This document shows, piece by piece, positions 56,493 through 64,000 of a DNA stretch of 64,000 nt. How positions within the stretch are numbered: the first letter of the stretch is position 1; the number at the start of each line of letters is the position of its first letter. Made by a program: the position numbers and the translations under genes. The notes under the pieces were generated by a model. The model was not told the DNA's origin. It ran no database searches and worked only from the letters and a program-made list of their open reading frames with translations. This DNA comes from Desmonostoc muscorum LEGE 12446 (GTDB taxonomy: Bacteria; Cyanobacteriota; Cyanobacteriia; Cyanobacteriales; Nostocaceae): contig NZ_JADEXS020000001.1 of NCBI RefSeq assembly GCF_015207005.2, positions 4,278,001 through 4,342,000 on the forward strand, in the 5' to 3' direction.

Positions 56493-57356
56493 TCAATTAT
56501 CCAAAATCATCGCTTGCTGTCCTTGAGCCGAAGTTGCATAACCTAAAAATGCTTGAACTCCAGGACTAGCAGGATTTTTATAGACATAATATAACTGCCG
56601 TTGGTAGGGATAACCACTTGCATCTGGCGTTAACCCGTCAATTGGAACAAATCGCACTGTTTGCTGATTAGCAACCTGTGCAAAAGTAGCATAGCCGATG
56701 CCATCAGTTCCTAAAGCTTGGAGTAGGGGAGTTGTGGCATCTCGTTGCAACGTTGTGATGTTTGGTGCTGCGCCAAAATTAGCTCCTTTTAGCACTATTT
56801 CCTGAAATGCTTGATGAGTTCCACTAACTGCTGGTCGATTAATAACTCGGATAGTTCCATTGTTACCACCTACGGCTGACCAGTTGTTAATTTTGCCCTG
56901 AAAAATATCTGCGGCTTGGGCGCTGGTTAATCCTTGATTGAAAGGATTTGCTTTGCCAACCACAAGAGCGATCGCATCTGTTGTCACAGATACCGCCACT
57001 AATCCCTGACTCTGTTCTTGTGCAGTCAAGGGTCGAGATACCGCTGCAATATCCGTTTTACCTGCTAACAAATCCGCGATACCATTTTGAGAACCATTGG
57101 CACTAGTAATAACATTTGCACCCGGAAATTGCCTCTCAAAAGTTCTTTTGAGATTTTGGTTAATTGTCACCATGCTAGTAGAACCGTCTATTCTTACAGT
57201 AGTACCACTAGGTACTGAATCTGGGCCTGGGGAAAAATTAGTAACTGGTATTACAGGTGCTGATTCCCGGTTGGAAAAGAACCAGTAGCCACCACCGATT
57301 AAAGCGAAAAAAATCAGGATAAAAACAATTGGAGGAGGAGCGTTTTTTTGACTCAT
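56493..57356 (-). CDS. Membrane-anchored PstS-like substrate-binding protein
   Basis: Protein of 287 residues: a membrane anchor (FILIFFALIGGGYWFF, about 12-27) and an extracytoplasmic periplasmic-binding domain of the PstS (PBP_like_2) class. Ligand-loop motifs are VRIDGSTSM, GSQNGIADLLAGKTDIAAVSRPL and the NRPAVSGT loop, at the places where phosphate-binding PstS proteins hold their anion. It has no lipobox and no transporter genes beside it, so it is more likely a sensor than an importer component. The gene follows the PspA-like gene with a six-base gap (one operon), and the same domain type is fused to CHAT proteases in the divergent operon. Confidence 0.88.
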   Translation of the reverse strand: MSQKNAPPPIVFILIFFALIGGGYWFFSNRESAPVIPVTNFSPGPDSVPSGTTVRIDGSTSMVTINQNLKRTFERQFPGANVITSANGSQNGIADLLAGKTDIAAVSRPLTAQEQSQGLVAVSVTTDAIALVVGKANPFNQGLTSAQAADIFQGKINNWSAVGGNNGTIRVINRPAVSGTHQAFQEIVLKGANFGAAPNITTLQRDATTPLLQALGTDGIGYATFAQVANQQTVRFVPIDGLTPDASGYPYQRQLYYVYKNPASPGVQAFLGYATSAQGQQAMILDN

Positions 57357-57362
57357 AACTTT

Positions 57363-58076
57363 TTACTCTGGTACTTTTTCAATACTTGATTCAGCTAACA
57401 TCTGCAAACGACGAGATACTTCGTCATCTACAGTCATACGTTCTATTTCTGCTTGGAGTTTTTCAGTTGGGTTTTCAGATATTTCAGCTAAAGCGCCTGT
57501 TTTTAAATTCCGCCGCTCAACTGCACTTTTAGCTTTTTCAAAGTCACTTTTAGCCGAACCAATGTCAAATTCATTATTGACTTTGGTAATCATTGCTAGT
57601 GCTTCGTTCACCTCTGACATATCTTTCATATTTTGCATGTCAGCTTTGTAGGCTTCTAGCTTCATGCGCTCTCGATTTAGCTTGTCTTTGGAAGCATTTA
57701 CAGCCGATTCGGCTTGCTTGACTAACTCCTCCAACTTCGGCAAGATTTGCTCTGTCTGAATTGCTTTGGTCATTGCCATCCGTGCTGCTTCTGGATTACC
57801 ACTGCGCTGAGCAATATTTGCTTGCTGTTCTAAAGTCCTTAATTCTTTGACTTTTGTCTCATATTTGTTTTTGGCTGTTTTGTAAGAACCTTCTTGCATA
57901 GCAACAGCTTCAGCCAGCTTTTGGACGGATTCTTGCATTGATTGAAGTGATTCTTCAGCTACGGCAACAGCTACTTTACCACCAGATTCTATCGGCATTC
58001 CCCATAGCCAATTCCAAGTACCGACTATGGTTCGTCCGGCTTTTTCACCCATTAACCAGTACATAACTTTTTTCAT
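57363..58076 (-). CDS. PspA/IM30-like coiled-coil protein
   Basis: Protein of 237 residues from ATG 58076 (an in-frame ATG at 58085 adds three). After a short hydrophobic N-terminal part (VMYWLMGEKAGRTIVGTWNWLWG) it is a long coiled coil (about 40-200; EESLQSMQESVQKLAEAVAMQEGS, LRTLEQQANIAQRSGNPEAA) as in PspA/IM30/Vipp1 ESCRT-III-like proteins that protect membranes. The N-terminal amphipathic helix differs from classical PspA, so the family call rests mainly on the coiled-coil pattern. First gene of the operon with the PstS-like protein; 585 bases from the divergent sigma-like gene. Confidence 0.75.
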   Translation of the reverse strand: MKKVMYWLMGEKAGRTIVGTWNWLWGMPIESGGKVAVAVAEESLQSMQESVQKLAEAVAMQEGSYKTAKNKYETKVKELRTLEQQANIAQRSGNPEAARMAMTKAIQTEQILPKLEELVKQAESAVNASKDKLNRERMKLEAYKADMQNMKDMSEVNEALAMITKVNNEFDIGSAKSDFEKAKSAVERRNLKTGALAEISENPTEKLQAEIERMTVDDEVSRRLQMLAESSIEKVPE

Positions 58077-58085
58077 ATAACACAC

Positions 58086-58660
58086 CTATTTCACTAAGAT
58101 TGCTTTGAATCAGATACAGCAAGTTTTATGATTGCGACTCTTATTAGATTTACATCCAGTATTTTTATTTTTATGAAATGACTGAGGATGAATGGCACTA
58201 AAATAAAAGTGAATTTTTAGACTTAATGGAGCGCGATCGCTCTTTTCCCAAAGAACCAGGACTTACTACACACAGGTAACGGAAAATCAAACCGCAGAGG
58301 ACGCAGAGAACACAGAGAAATAGGAGTTTAAGAGAGTTGTTGCCTAAGTTATTGGTTTCCGATTGCTCTTAGTCTTATTAGATTCACATCCAATATTTCT
58401 ATCTTTATGAAATGACTCAGTATAAAGGGCAATAAAATAAACCCAAATCCTTGATAGAAAAGGCTTTTGGGTTTTAGCCTAACGTCGTGCCATGCTATCT
58501 ATGAATTTTCTCTGGCAAGAGTAATAAAAACTTTTTGATATTTGTAACATCCACAAGTAATAACTGAATTAAAAATCAGGTAAACTCAAGCAGCAAAAGC
58601 TTTTTTGTCTTTCGGGTAAGTAGTTAATACCCACTCAAGCAGCTTGGGAGAAAAATCGTT
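58086..58660. other. Divergent regulatory gap between the PspA and CHAT operons
   Basis: Holds both promoters. A small dispersed element lies at 58258-58350. The phrase 'ttattagatt(t/c)acatccaatatttctatctttatgaaatgactcag' is duplicated in near-copies starting about 58141 and 58376, so part of the region is an imperfect direct repeat. No gene. Confidence 0.55.
58258..58350. repeat. Small dispersed element (relative of 2507-2618)
   Basis: Starts 'aggacttactacacacagg', contains 'accgcagaggacgcagag' and ends 'agagagttgttgcctaagt'. Order and words match the element at 2507-2618. Confidence 0.6.
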
Positions 58661-59377
58661 GTGGATGAACAACTTAAAAAACTAATTGATGAGGTATGCT
58701 GCTACCCAGACCCCAGTCCAGCGAGGCAGAAAGCATTAAACAGACTGCTTGTGCTTATTCAACAACTCCCTGGTATTTATAAATCTGGGCACCAAGACTA
58801 TTTAGAAGCGTTAAATCTAACTTGGGAATGGGTGAGCCGGAAGATTTGTGCATTTGAAGCGCGATCACGAAGTGACTCCGAAGGAGTATCGCCTTCTCTG
58901 CAACAAAGCCTAGTAATCTGGATTAATGGCTTTCTCAAGTGGCGGATTAAAGATTTATACATCTCAGACAGTAATTATACTATTAGTTTAGACAGACTTA
59001 CCCGTAACGATGAGGGCGACGAAACAAGCCTGCTGAATATCTTGCCAGACCGTCACTCACAAAGTATTACCTTAGATTTACTGGATATCAAAATTGCCCA
59101 AATTCAGGAAAATCAGCGTCAGTGCCTTGGAAAACGCATCTGGCAATACATTGAGCAAGATGAAGAAGGTAAATTAACAGCTAGTCATCTGCGAAAAAAA
59201 CCAGAATGCCATTGTCAGTTATTGGCAATGCGCTTACTTGTGGAAAATCCACCTCATAAAATCTCTGATATTGCTAGAGATTTAAATATAAGCAATCAAA
59301 CTCTTTACTCTCACTGGAAGAAAAATTGTCTTCCCCTGTTAAGAGAAATTGGGATTAATTTCGGATACGACCAATGA
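58661..59377 (+). CDS. Sigma-70-like transcription regulator of the CHAT operon
   Basis: Protein of 238 residues, GTG start with 'gggag' ten bases before. The central part (YLEALNLTWEWVSRKICAFE and VIWINGFLKWRIKDLYI) fits a divergent sigma-70 region 2. The C-terminus carries a helix-turn-helix of region-4 type, KISDIARDLNISNQTLYSHW. The gene overlaps the DUF1822 gene by four bases (ATGA), so the two are translationally coupled. An eight-codon insertion in frame (58867-58890) lies near residue 70. It may direct RNA polymerase to this operon or be a DNA-binding sensor; sigma activity is inference. Confidence 0.7.
   Translation: MDEQLKKLIDEVCCYPDPSPARQKALNRLLVLIQQLPGIYKSGHQDYLEALNLTWEWVSRKICAFEARSRSDSEGVSPSLQQSLVIWINGFLKWRIKDLYISDSNYTISLDRLTRNDEGDETSLLNILPDRHSQSITLDLLDIKIAQIQENQRQCLGKRIWQYIEQDEEGKLTASHLRKKPECHCQLLAMRLLVENPPHKISDIARDLNISNQTLYSHWKKNCLPLLREIGINFGYDQ
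58867..58890. repeat. 24-bp in-frame insertion in a HIP1 site
   Basis: 'gcgatc' + 24 bases ('acgaagtgactccgaagg' ...) + 'gcc': removal restores a HIP1 octamer and leaves the frame intact. The inserted piece contains the small palindrome 'actccgaaggagt'. Confidence 0.7.
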
Positions 59378-60279
59378 GTAGCACACAATCACATGTTTTA
59401 AGCGTCCCTCTCCCTCCAAATGCCCATCGTTGGGCTGAGGAATTTGCCGCCCAGCAAGATAACCCCCAAAAGGGAAAACAAGTTTATCTTAATACCCTAG
59501 CCGTTTATGCCGTTCACAGTTATCTCAAATGGCTAAACATTCAAACAGCCCTAAATCAAGGCGATAGCTGGCATCGCGGTTTAAGGGCGATTTTTGATGT
59601 TGCTGACTTAGTGTTGCCTGGTGTTGGCAAACTTGAATGTCGTCCGGTGTTACCGGGTGAGGTTGCCATCGTCTTACCTCCGACGATGACACAGGATCGC
59701 ATTGGTTATGTAGCAGTTCAGTTTAATCAGCAGTTAGATTATGTAGAATTACTGGGATTTACCCCAGCAGTGACGATGACTGAATCACCACAAATACTGG
59801 AAATAGGACAATTACAATCTTTTGATGCTCTTTTCGAGATTATACATAGGCGTTCGCTATTGGTAAATCTGCGTCAATGGGTGACGGGAATCTTCCAAGC
59901 AGATTGGCAACCCCCAGAGTTAGTGTTTGCTAACAATTTCAGAAGCAGTACTACAATGACTCGCCCTTCCACAAATTCCATCAGTCGGGCAAAAGTGATT
60001 AACTTAGGCAGACAAGTGCTGTTGTTAGTGCAGTTAACTCCCACCGACAGTGAAGTTTTCGACATTCGCCTGCGGGTTTATCCGGGTGATGATGCTATTC
60101 ATCTACCAGCTTCTTTACAACTGATAGTCCTTGATACAGATGGAAACACTGGCATGGAAGTGCAAGCAAGAAGCTCAGATGATTGGATGCAACTAGAGTT
60201 TAGCTGCCAACACGAGGAAAAATTCAGTGTCAAGATAGTGTTAGGGGAAACAAGTCTGATGGAAGAGTTTGTTGTTTAA
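59374..60279 (+). CDS. DUF1822 family protein
   Basis: Protein of 301 residues of the cyanobacteria-specific DUF1822 family. Marks: LSVPLPPNAHRWAEEFAAQQ, the conserved YLNTLAVYAVHSYLKWLNI helix, LPGVGKLECRPVLPGE, and a C-terminal beta-rich part (QVLLLVQLTPTDSEVFDIRL). DUF1822 genes often lie beside CHAT-protease genes in cyanobacteria (from memory), as here; it may be the substrate or adaptor of the CHAT protease. It sits between the sigma-like gene (4-base overlap) and the first CHAT gene (21-base gap). Confidence 0.88.
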   Translation: MSSTQSHVLSVPLPPNAHRWAEEFAAQQDNPQKGKQVYLNTLAVYAVHSYLKWLNIQTALNQGDSWHRGLRAIFDVADLVLPGVGKLECRPVLPGEVAIVLPPTMTQDRIGYVAVQFNQQLDYVELLGFTPAVTMTESPQILEIGQLQSFDALFEIIHRRSLLVNLRQWVTGIFQADWQPPELVFANNFRSSTTMTRPSTNSISRAKVINLGRQVLLLVQLTPTDSEVFDIRLRVYPGDDAIHLPASLQLIVLDTDGNTGMEVQARSSDDWMQLEFSCQHEEKFSVKIVLGETSLMEEFVV

Positions 60280-60300
60280 AACAAACAAAAGGAGACAACA

Positions 60301-62421
60301 ATGGCGATCGTCAAGTTGAAATTCAGACGCAATTCACCAGATGGATTTCTGGTGATTCTGACGGTGAAGAACTTGGATGAAGAAACAGAAGGGTTTCTAC
60401 CTCCGTTACCAGCAAATTTAGAATCATCCTTTAATGAATGGCAGTCAGCCTATCGCCAAATCGAGGCTGTGCGTTCTTGTGCTACGTTCCGTCTCACACC
60501 CAAAAGTGCCACAATTCATTCCCACGCGGAACAGACTGCCGCAGTCAAAGACCAGCTAAATCAATGGCTGAATACTTCCGATTACAAGTGGCGACCAATT
60601 CGGGATAGACTAATTGCGATCGCTCAGCAATTGCATCAGTCAAATGAAGAAATTCGCGTCATCATCGATGCCAAAGATATCGACTTACGCCGCCTTCCTT
60701 GGCAAGAATGGAATTTATTTGAAGAACACTATCCCAACGCCGAAATTGCTCTCAGTGCGCCCAAAAATAAAAATAAACAGAGCGATAAACTAGTTCCTCA
60801 AAGCCAACATATCAGAATTTTAGTTGCTGTTGGTAGGAGCGATGGTATTAATACAAAAGATGACTTAAAACTAATTCAGGATTTAGAAAAAGATGGAGTG
60901 GAAGTACTCTGTTTAATGCAGCCTAGCCGCAAAGATTTGTGTGAAGCGCTTTGGGATGACCAAGGTTATCATATTTTTGTGTTTACAGGGCACAGTGGAA
61001 GTCAAGAAGATGGACAGATAGGTTGGATTGAACTCAATGACAAAGATAGGTTGAGTATTGAAGATTTTAAGGAGGCTTTAAAGCAAGCTATTGATAAAGG
61101 ATTACAGTTAGCAATTTTTAATTCCTGCGATGGTCTGGGATTAGCTAACGAACTTGCACAACTACATTTGCCTCAAGTTATTGTCATGCGGGAACCAGTA
61201 CCTGACCCCGTAGCAATAGACTTTTTAAGGTACTTTTTCAAAGAATTTACCCATAATCATAAATCACTATTTACTTCTGTTAAAAAAGCACGGAAACGCC
61301 TAGAACATTTTAAGTCAGATTACCCTGGTGCAATTTGGTTGCCAACAATTTGTATCCAAGCCAATATTGAACCATTGACTTGGGAAGAATTGCGCGGAAT
61401 TTCTCCGCCAAAGCCGATTAAAATCGAGCCAGAGAATTCAAATCATAAACTCAAAAAAAACATTAAGCCGTGGTTATTAATTGGTTTGGTTGGTGTGGTT
61501 GTTAGCGGTGGTGTATTATATTCTTTGATTAGCAAAAAACACGACTCCGATTTTAGTTCCATCACTGCTCCCGAAGGAACATGGTTTTATGGTGGTAGTA
61601 CATCTTGGGCATCAATTCGCAAATATATAGATCCTGAAATCAAAAAAGCCCATCCGAAATTTGAATTACGTTATACCGATCCAATTAAGGGTACACCAGG
61701 TTCTGGTATGGGAATTCGGATGTTGTTGGAAGGACAATTGACCTTTTCTCAATCGTCCCGCCCGATCGCAGAAAGAGAGTATCAACAATCTCAACAACGG
61801 GGATTGCTAAAACAAATTCCAGTGGGTTTGGAAGGATTAGCGATCGCTGTTCACCCCAATCTGCAAATTCCAGGGTTAACTCTAACACAAATCAAAGATA
61901 TTTATACAGGTAAAATAACTAACTGGAAACAAGTCGGCGGTCCCGATCTAAAAATTACTGCCTACTCACGTCACTTTGAAGACGGAGGCACTGTCGAGTT
62001 TTTAGTTGACAATATTCTCGGTGAAGAAAAACTCGGAAGTAACGTAGTATACGTTTACAATACAACAGATGGTCTGAGAAAATTAGCAAGCGATCGCAGC
62101 GGTATTTACTATGCTTCGGCACCAGAAGTTGTTCCCCAATGTACGGTTAAGTCATTGCCAATCGCCAAAGAAGGCAACAATTTTGTAGCTCCTTACATAG
62201 AACCTTTGATTAAAGGCGATCAATGTCTAAATCAGCGCAACAAGTTAAACATCGATGCTTTCAAAACAGGTGAGTATCCAATTACACGTCAGATGTTTGT
62301 CATAGTTAAGCAAGATAATGGCAATTTAGAACAACAAGCGGGCGAAGCATACGCCAAAATGCTACTAACAAATCAAGGACAAAAACTGATGAATGAAGCT
62401 GGATTTGTGCGTATCCGTTGA
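60301..62421 (+). CDS. CHAT protease - transmembrane - PstS-like binding domain fusion, paralog 1
   Basis: Protein of 706 residues with three parts. Residues about 1-375 are cytosolic: an N-terminal alpha/beta region, then a CHAT (caspase-like) protease with the dyad His231 in FVFTGHSGSQEDG and Cys276 in AIFNSCDGLGLANELA. A single membrane helix (about 390-409, PWLLIGLVGVVVSGGVLYSL, preceded by lysines, so N-in) follows. Residues about 418-706 are an extracytoplasmic PstS-like binding domain: YGGSTSWASIR, GSGMGIRMLLEGQLTFSQSSRPI, GLTLTQIKDIYTGKITNWK and a DGGT ligand loop in SRHFEDGGTVEF. A strong AAGGAGA site lies nine bases before ATG. The design suggests outside ligand sensing coupled to inside proteolysis. 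Confidence 0.92.
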   Translation: MAIVKLKFRRNSPDGFLVILTVKNLDEETEGFLPPLPANLESSFNEWQSAYRQIEAVRSCATFRLTPKSATIHSHAEQTAAVKDQLNQWLNTSDYKWRPIRDRLIAIAQQLHQSNEEIRVIIDAKDIDLRRLPWQEWNLFEEHYPNAEIALSAPKNKNKQSDKLVPQSQHIRILVAVGRSDGINTKDDLKLIQDLEKDGVEVLCLMQPSRKDLCEALWDDQGYHIFVFTGHSGSQEDGQIGWIELNDKDRLSIEDFKEALKQAIDKGLQLAIFNSCDGLGLANELAQLHLPQVIVMREPVPDPVAIDFLRYFFKEFTHNHKSLFTSVKKARKRLEHFKSDYPGAIWLPTICIQANIEPLTWEELRGISPPKPIKIEPENSNHKLKKNIKPWLLIGLVGVVVSGGVLYSLISKKHDSDFSSITAPEGTWFYGGSTSWASIRKYIDPEIKKAHPKFELRYTDPIKGTPGSGMGIRMLLEGQLTFSQSSRPIAEREYQQSQQRGLLKQIPVGLEGLAIAVHPNLQIPGLTLTQIKDIYTGKITNWKQVGGPDLKITAYSRHFEDGGTVEFLVDNILGEEKLGSNVVYVYNTTDGLRKLASDRSGIYYASAPEVVPQCTVKSLPIAKEGNNFVAPYIEPLIKGDQCLNQRNKLNIDAFKTGEYPITRQMFVIVKQDNGNLEQQAGEAYAKMLLTNQGQKLMNEAGFVRIR

Positions 62422-62435
62422 GTAAGGAGACAGCA

Positions 62436-64000
62436 ATGGCGGTGGTCAACTTAAAACTCAGACGCACCTCAGAAAAGGGATTTTTAGTGATTCTGAGGGC
62501 AAAGAATTTGGATGAAGAAACAGAAGGGTTTCTGCCTCCATTATTACCAGAATTAGAATTATCTTTCAATCAATGGCAGACAGCTTATCGTCAAATTGAG
62601 GCTGTGCGGTCTTGTGTTGCTCCTGCACCGGGGTTACGTCTGACACCTAAAAGTGTCACCATTCATTCTCATGCAGAACACACAGGAGCAGTCAAAGATT
62701 ACCTGAATCAATGGCTCAACTCTGGGGATAGCAAGTGGCGACCAATTCGGGATAGATTAATTGCGATCGCTCAACAATTGCATCAATCAAATGATGAAAT
62801 TCGTGTAATAATTGATGCCATAGATATTGATTTACGCCGCCTTCCTTGGCAAGCATGGAACTTATTTGAAGAACATTATCCCCAAACCGAAATTGCCCTG
62901 AGTACCCCCAAAAGCGCAAATCAACAGAGCAATAAACTAGTTCCCAAAAGTACAAAAGTTAGAATATTAGTTGCTGTCGGTAGAAGTGACGGCATTAATA
63001 CAAAAGATGACTTAAAGGTAATTCAAGATTTAGAGAAACATGGGGTAGAAGTAGTCTGTTTAATTCAGCCTAGCCGCAAGGAATTGTGTGAAGCGCTTTG
63101 GGATGAAAAAGGCTACCATATTTTCGTCTTTACGGGACACAGTGGCAGTCAAGAAGATGGACAAATAGGTTGGATTGAACTGAACAATAAAGAGAGTTTG
63201 ACTATTGAGGAGTTTAAGGAAGCTTTCAAGCAAGCTATTCATAAAGGATTGCAATTAGGAATTTTTAATTCCTGCGATGGTTTGGGATTAGCTAACCAAA
63301 TTGCCCAACTACATTTACCTCAAATTATTATCATGCGGGAACCCGTCCCAGACCCCGTAGCTGTAGAGTTTTTAAAGTACTTTTTTCAAGAGTTTTCCCG
63401 TAACAACTCCCTGTTTACTTCTGTGCAAAAAGCACGTAAACGCCTAGAACATTTTAAGTCTGATTACCCAGGTGCAATTTGGTTGCCAACAATTTGTATT
63501 GAACCAAATTTTGAGCCGTTGAATTGGCAGGGATTGTGTGGAGTTTCCCCCCGAATATTGCCTCCTGTAAAGCCAGATAATTCAATTCATCAACCTCAGA
63601 AAAATATTAAGCCGTGGTTGTTAACTGGCTTAATTAGTGTAGCGATCGGTAGTGCTGCATATATTGGTTGGAATATATTCTTACCATCGCCTCCTACGGG
63701 AACATTTCGGGATGGTGGTAGTACATCATACGCACCAATTAGAGCATTAGTTAATGAGAAGATTAAAAAAAAGTGGCCTCAATTTAAATTGATATACTGG
63801 AAGCATCCTAGTCTGCCACAAAATTCGGGAACAGGAATCAAGATGTTACTAGAAGGTCAAATATCTTTTGCTGAGTCTTCAAGATTTGTAAATGATGACG
63901 AGTCTGAACGTGCGACTACGAAAAGAATAAAGTTGAAGCAGGTTGCTGTAGCAATGGATGCAATTGCGATCGTTGTTAATCGTGATTTAAATATTCCTGG
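62436..64000 (+). CDS. CHAT protease - transmembrane - PstS-like binding domain fusion, paralog 2 (3'-truncated)
   Basis: Tandem paralog of the preceding gene, 14 bases after its stop with the same AAGGAGA site; 521 codons are visible and the frame is open at the window edge. The same parts in the same order: CHAT His235 in FVFTGHSGSQEDG, Cys280 in GIFNSCDGLGLANQIA, a membrane helix (about 392-412, PWLLTGLISVAIGSAAYIGW) and the start of the binding domain (DGGSTSYAPIRALVNE). The binding part differs more than the protease part (for example FAESSRFVNDDESERATTKR against FSQSSRPIAEREYQQSQQRG), so the two copies may sense different ligands. Confidence 0.92.
   Translation, partial: MAVVNLKLRRTSEKGFLVILRAKNLDEETEGFLPPLLPELELSFNQWQTAYRQIEAVRSCVAPAPGLRLTPKSVTIHSHAEHTGAVKDYLNQWLNSGDSKWRPIRDRLIAIAQQLHQSNDEIRVIIDAIDIDLRRLPWQAWNLFEEHYPQTEIALSTPKSANQQSNKLVPKSTKVRILVAVGRSDGINTKDDLKVIQDLEKHGVEVVCLIQPSRKELCEALWDEKGYHIFVFTGHSGSQEDGQIGWIELNNKESLTIEEFKEAFKQAIHKGLQLGIFNSCDGLGLANQIAQLHLPQIIIMREPVPDPVAVEFLKYFFQEFSRNNSLFTSVQKARKRLEHFKSDYPGAIWLPTICIEPNFEPLNWQGLCGVSPRILPPVKPDNSIHQPQKNIKPWLLTGLISVAIGSAAYIGWNIFLPSPPTGTFRDGGSTSYAPIRALVNEKIKKKWPQFKLIYWKHPSLPQNSGTGIKMLLEGQISFAESSRFVNDDESERATTKRIKLKQVAVAMDAIAIVVNRDLNIP

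Follow-up and report, generated by a model that had tools for sequence, protein, structure and literature searches.

A predicted CHAT receptor-protease locus with PBP-type sensors and a recurrent association of CHAT loci with PspA-PBP pairs in cyanobacteria

The window, a stretch of 64,000 nucleotides from the genome of Desmonostoc muscorum LEGE 12446, ends in a locus that is a PBP-sensing variant of a receptor-protease class, the protease core of which was already predicted in the main text of PMC8195603. CHAT loci also have a recurrent, unexplained tie to pairs of PspA and PBP genes, and the best reading of the locus is a membrane receptor-protease that controls transcription and is loosely linked with a PspA arm for the envelope. 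The features are:

56493..57356, minus strand: PstS-like PBP of the Sll0540 type, anchored in the membrane, 287 aa, TM helix near residues 10-28, partner of PspA
57363..58085, minus strand: PspA/IM30-like protein, 240 aa, Trp-rich conserved N-terminal helix, PF04012
58086..58660, no strand: divergent intergenic region with two copies of a ~58-bp repeat and, ahead of the sigma-like gene, a conserved block
58661..59377, plus strand: sigma-like/HTH regulator, 238 aa, HTH matches below cut-off
59374..60279, plus strand: DUF1822 protein, 301 aa, PF08852 with 223.5 bits
60301..62421, plus strand: CHAT-TM-PBP1, 706 aa, from Pfam, model and structural matches
62436..64000, onward to the equivalent of 64544, plus strand: CHAT-TM-PBP2, from Pfam on the whole-genome sequence

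A sequence-only reading of the window had proposed an operon of a sigma-like gene, DUF1822 and two CHAT-TM-PBP genes, divergent from genes for a PspA-like protein and an anchored PBP, and all of these genes were found as placed. The sigma-like and DUF1822 ORFs share 4 bases, CHAT-PBP1 follows DUF1822 after a gap of 21, and CHAT-PBP2 starts either at an ATG at 62436 (gap of 14) or at a TTG at 62418 (overlap of 4); with overlaps of 4 bases and gaps of 14-21, the plus-strand layout is like that of a single operon. The source genome is 9.6 Mb in size, with 53 CHAT matches, and in it CHAT-PBP2 is complete (708 aa from the TTG start, with a complete PBP_like_2 domain of 101.6 bits by Pfam). When synteny was followed past base 64000, the gene was found to end at the equivalent of 64544, with a Band_7/SPFH gene 207 bases later. 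This Band_7 gene (L021:14752-15687) was rejected as a conserved part of the locus, since a single-sequence profile matched just the window's copy in the first locus set; the profile also has weak matches near two PspA loci. Among the matches listed, the nearest named CHAT-PBP homologue is that of Desmonostoc muscorum CCALA 125, with 92% identity. In relatives the CHAT-PBP paralogues occur singly: judged by higher identity, the PBP1 type is found in L043, L044, L151 and L231, and the PBP2 type alone in L042 and L229.

Between the divergent operons, two copies of the ~58-bp repeat, 86% identical, lie at 58136-58196 and 58373-58430; elsewhere in the genome the repeat has matches at E 0.02 or worse only. 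The first copy and a block ahead of the sigma-like gene are conserved in an alignment of five loci. A search of this block for an RNA hairpin gave z-scores of -0.2 to -1.6 across the five aligned loci, and promoter and terminator scans returned site numbers about equal to those of shuffled sequence.

Both CHAT domains are above the Pfam cut-off (40-42 bits vs 24). CHAT-PBP1 is composed of an alpha+beta domain (~1-165), CHAT (~170-362), a TM helix (~391-410) and a PBP domain (425-706). Its predicted structure (pLDDT 84) has the alpha+beta domain followed by CHAT, with structural matches to separase/CHAT and PstS, including CHAT proteases of CRISPR and SAVED systems. In an alignment of 63 of the best 120 homologues listed, the candidate dyad His (GHS) is kept in 62 and the Cys (NSCDG) in all 63, the exception being P0096, where Asp replaces the His. 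Together with the CHAT fold matches of the model, these counts bear out the intact His-Cys dyad that had been proposed, and Pfam and the predicted structure support a receptor-like build of PBP, one helix and CHAT protease. CHAT and PBP_like_2 are both present in 119 of the best 120 homologues listed, the query counted. From this anatomy we infer a PBP domain outside, a CHAT domain inside and ligand-driven activation.

The earlier proposal that the three PBPs of the locus share a fold was right as to the fold, but they belong to two subfamilies, with the PspA-paired PBP apart: the two CHAT PBPs are 46% identical to each other and 29-31% identical to it. That the three are recent copies of one receptor was rejected, because the PspA-paired PBP is of the other subfamily and lacks a Cys pair, which is invariant in all 63 CHAT-fused PBPs and there fits a non-cytoplasmic location of the domain. 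The PspA-paired PBP (PF12849, PBP_like_2, 131.5 bits, one TM) matches PDB 9l8j Sll0540 with 296.8 bits over residues 48-283 and retains the pocket Asp, Arg and SGT. The binding fold had been called PstS-like as well, and it does match phosphate-bound PstS structures. However, CHAT-fused PBPs differ from the PstS binding protein of phosphate transport at the pocket Asp, a position that is Ser or Thr in 46/63 of them and Thr or Ser in both CHAT PBPs of the window. The Arg and (S/G)GT positions are mostly retained among fused PBPs; the Arg is kept in CHAT-PBP1 and lost in CHAT-PBP2, which may therefore bind nothing anionic. Neither CHAT-PBP1 (123 bits) nor the free PBP (131 bits) reaches the cut-off of the NCBIfam PstS-family model TIGR02136 (206.6).

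The same PBP subfamily and one-TM topology are found in Ser/Thr kinase-TM-PBP_like_2 receptors (L155, L156, L162), where the output is a kinase and not a CHAT protease; the sensor would therefore be a swappable input module. Both sensor classes meet in two loci, L149 and L163, where a kinase, a TM-PBP_like_2, a TM-Peripla_BP_6 and a second TM-PBP lie in one cluster (domains assigned by Pfam in L149, and by similar gene sizes and the PBP profile in L163). Another ORF with this sensor (L165:5931-7556, 541 aa) has an N-terminal region of ~260 aa with no Pfam match, possibly a different output domain.

The EACC2-caspase systems predicted by Kaur et al. 2021 (PMC8195603) have an ECF sigma factor and DUF1822 as neighbours and vary in their sensors; the EACC2 kind is described there as a constant alpha+beta plus caspase-like N-terminus with a variable C-terminal sensor. 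The window has the same DUF1822 neighbour, but its sigma-like protein lacks a sigma Pfam match. The variable sensor behind a TM helix is also seen here, with PBP_like_2, CHASE2 and Peripla_BP_6 on related N-termini. The terms pbp, sbp, periplasmic and pspa have no occurrence in the main text of PMC8195603, where the PBP sensor, PspA and the PspA-paired PBP are thus unnamed, although PBPs may be among its 'several small-molecule-binding domains' in figures or source data. DUF1822 is called a TPR protein in that text; our model of the 301-aa protein combines helices and strands with an Ig-like beta sandwich at the C-terminus, and no TPR was seen in it, at a mean pLDDT of just 71.7. As for the supposed sigma-like regulator, the operon link to an HTH/sigma-like gene stood, but the protein has no Pfam sigma match and its HTH matches are below cut-off; Sigma70_r4_2 is matched by 5/16 proteins at this operon position.

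DUF1822 lies upstream of 65/84 CHAT ORFs, across sensor types. Its co-occurrence with CHAT-PBP is partial: among 17 CHAT-PBP loci with 4 kb of room, pooled from several searches (CHAT, PBP and PspA queries) and so not one sample, DUF1822 is upstream at 12, but none was found within 4 kb upstream at the other five. CHAT-TM-CHASE2 operons of the same genome share the protease/DUF1822 layout (Pfam-checked in L022 and L026) and differ in the CHASE2 sensor and in having DUF928 next, which is the case for 36/41 CHAT-CHASE2, 0/13 CHAT-PBP and 0/30 other CHAT ORFs. The same genome also encodes, at L028:5216-9266, a CHAT protein of 424 aa, DUF1822 and, last, a subtilase (Peptidase_S8) for which TM helices are predicted; this set is a further protease variant of the module.

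The PspA-like protein of the window has diverged within its family (PF04012, PspA_IM30, 44 bits vs a cut-off of 33.9), and its gene is apart from the PspA cluster of the genome near 5.64 Mb. The Trp-rich N-terminal helix was identified in a subfamily alignment of nine PspA proteins, and the subfamily is present in 78/291 genomes of the order (E 1e-20) and 38/386 of the phylum (alignment query, E 1e-25). We compared 89 PspA loci, comprising 80 of 81 order matches (the dropped one, in G047, L189, has no readable PspA ORF), seven loci for eight extra phylum matches, and L043 and L044, which entered through their CHAT gene. About 16 kb around each PspA gene was fetched and CHAT was searched up to 9 kb away, so that the absence of CHAT usually refers to 7-8 kb on each side, and to less at contig ends; beyond the Pfam scans, genes were labelled with profiles built from window and relative proteins. 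The next downstream partner of PspA is PBP_like_2 at 52 loci, Peripla_BP_6 (~450 aa) at 21 and neither at 16. Within the limits of the fetched DNA, 23/89 loci (21/87 without L043 and L044) have CHAT no more than 9 kb from PspA, namely 5/52, 15/21 and 3/16 of these groups, respectively, and in this respect the suspected link to PspA proved recurrent. The idea that the CHAT operon must include PspA-PBP was rejected, since CHAT is absent from the fetched DNA (usually 7-8 kb to either side) at 47 of the 52 PspA/PBP_like_2 pairs; for the same reason, and because the pair forms a conserved operon by itself, its description as the 'protective arm' of a CHAT system was not supported.

Where Peripla_BP_6 (a type-I PBP) serves as both CHAT sensor and PspA partner, PspA is often within the CHAT operon. 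Nine genomes of one genus have the order sigma, DUF1822, CHAT-TM-Peripla_BP_6, PspA, Peripla_BP_6, with PspA ~107 bases after CHAT (domains Pfam-checked in L187, L190 and L193). The same five genes of the window block adjoin in L043 and L151, where no other window-locus gene matches (in L151 the block encloses one further ORF, of 598 aa), and again in L229, where the Uma2 gene is kept too. The presence of the five genes together in these three loci argues that the association is not due to chance, and maintenance is suggested by L043 and L151, which retain the block although the DNA fetched there shares no other gene with the window locus. A 466-aa ORF (L231:7440-8840, G489) fuses the first ~185 PspA-like residues in frame to the PBP, with 98% and 93% identity to the respective window proteins; it is either a natural fusion or an assembly deletion.

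The sensor class of CHAT equals the class of the PspA partner at 20/20 loci (5 PBP_like_2, 15 Peripla_BP_6). In the window the two sensors share 29-31% identity, and in three Peripla_BP_6 loci they share 32-42%, so the matched sensors are not a simple recent copy. In the PspA tree (83 of the 89 rows, each at least 215 aa, six being too short), the six CHAT-linked Nostoc-group rows form one clade (94/94), and a clade of 23 (100/98) holds the remaining 17 CHAT-linked rows, with a long-branch warning for the Peripla_BP_6 clade. The CHAT-link label needs four changes on the tree, at least three of them forced by well-supported branches, which suggests about two origins of the association, possibly three; the 20/20 agreement in fold thus rests on about two events. 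PspA is near CHAT in 8/37 genera, a strong excess over the expected 0.5-0.9 if genera are independent, with DUF1822 counts standing in for CHAT density; under this null, at least two linked genera have P 0.08-0.24 and at least three P 0.01-0.06. The sensor class would switch in both arms together, PstS-like in Nostoc and Peripla_BP_6 elsewhere, and we propose that protease and membrane repair may share a signal class. A two-armed envelope sensing, with the same fold fused to a CHAT protease and, as an anchored protein, paired with the PspA/ESCRT-III-like arm, is a tentative idea that we place rather below an even chance.

From the observed genes, domains, dyad, predicted fold and conserved neighbourhood, a topology, ligand, signalling path, substrate, transcriptional output and joint action with PspA can be proposed. 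The periplasmic PBP domain would bind an anion-like ligand, and its opening or closing would be relayed through one TM helix to the cytoplasmic separase/caspase-like CHAT protease. The protease might then cut a local partner, at a guess DUF1822, the sigma-like protein or itself, and cleavage would shift transcription through the sigma-like factor; the tandem CHAT-PBP copies may read two ligands or ligand states. The PspA-like/anchored-PBP pair would be an independent envelope-maintenance unit, which probably answers the same kind of periplasmic signal. That a receptor-protease switch of the EACC2/CHAT kind controls transcription, with the independent PspA-PBP unit recruited as a neighbour, seems to us an even call. 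Somewhat short of that, yet a serious contender, is a real receptor-protease operon next to which PspA-PBP lies by chance and has stayed through common descent in the Nostoc group. The many pairs with no CHAT in the fetched DNA (47/52), the single PspA clade of the Nostoc-group cases and the divergence of the two operons, which are not one transcript, are consistent with it; the intact block of L043 and L151 argues against it, as does the other PspA clade, in six genera of which PspA and CHAT are no more than 9 kb apart, often on the same strand in the same operon.

Structural matches to CRISPR and SAVED CHAT proteases, and the filing of EACC2 among conflict systems in the main text of PMC8195603, would suit an anti-phage or cell-death system in which the CHAT protease is a killer triggered by envelope disturbance. 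We consider this unlikely, as PADLOC gave no family and no match better than E 0.015 for six proteins (CHAT-PBP2 up to the window end), the HTH/sigma-like gene points to regulation and the sensor is common to kinases. Equally improbable is a regulator of phosphate status, with CHAT-PBP as a true phosphate receptor and the PspA-PBP as an accessory phosphate binder: phosphate-binding proteins are the best structural matches and most Arg and (S/G)GT positions are kept, but the replaced Asp, the scores under the TIGR02136 cut-off and the missing Arg of CHAT-PBP2 speak against it.

Separase, Csx29 and SAVED-CHAT, which are activated by securin loss, RNA and a cyclic nucleotide, respectively, are not one-TM receptors, unlike the proposed CHAT-TM-PBP receptors. 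HetF is a membrane-anchored CHAT protein and putative protease of a filamentous cyanobacterium that is reported in PMC8406250 to act in cell division and heterocyst formation, an example of a regulatory role for CHAT proteins anchored in the membrane of such bacteria; HetF carries TPR where CHAT-PBP carries PBP, and CHAT-PBP scores only about 21 bits against the HetF model. Our literature search found no open-licence paper joining CHAT, PspA and periplasmic binding proteins in cyanobacterial operons; in the same literature EACC2 is mentioned by three papers, of which one is relevant, and DUF1822 by two.

To our knowledge, the signals of CHAT/caspase-like proteins are mostly unknown, and the input of CHAT-PBP is approachable through its soluble PBP domain. 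The locus also gives a comparative hint that the same sensor classes serve both these proteases and PspA-type membrane repair. If the proposed switch is true, a bacterial one-helix receptor would signal by proteolysis and not by phosphorylation, with a sensor domain that is used by kinases.
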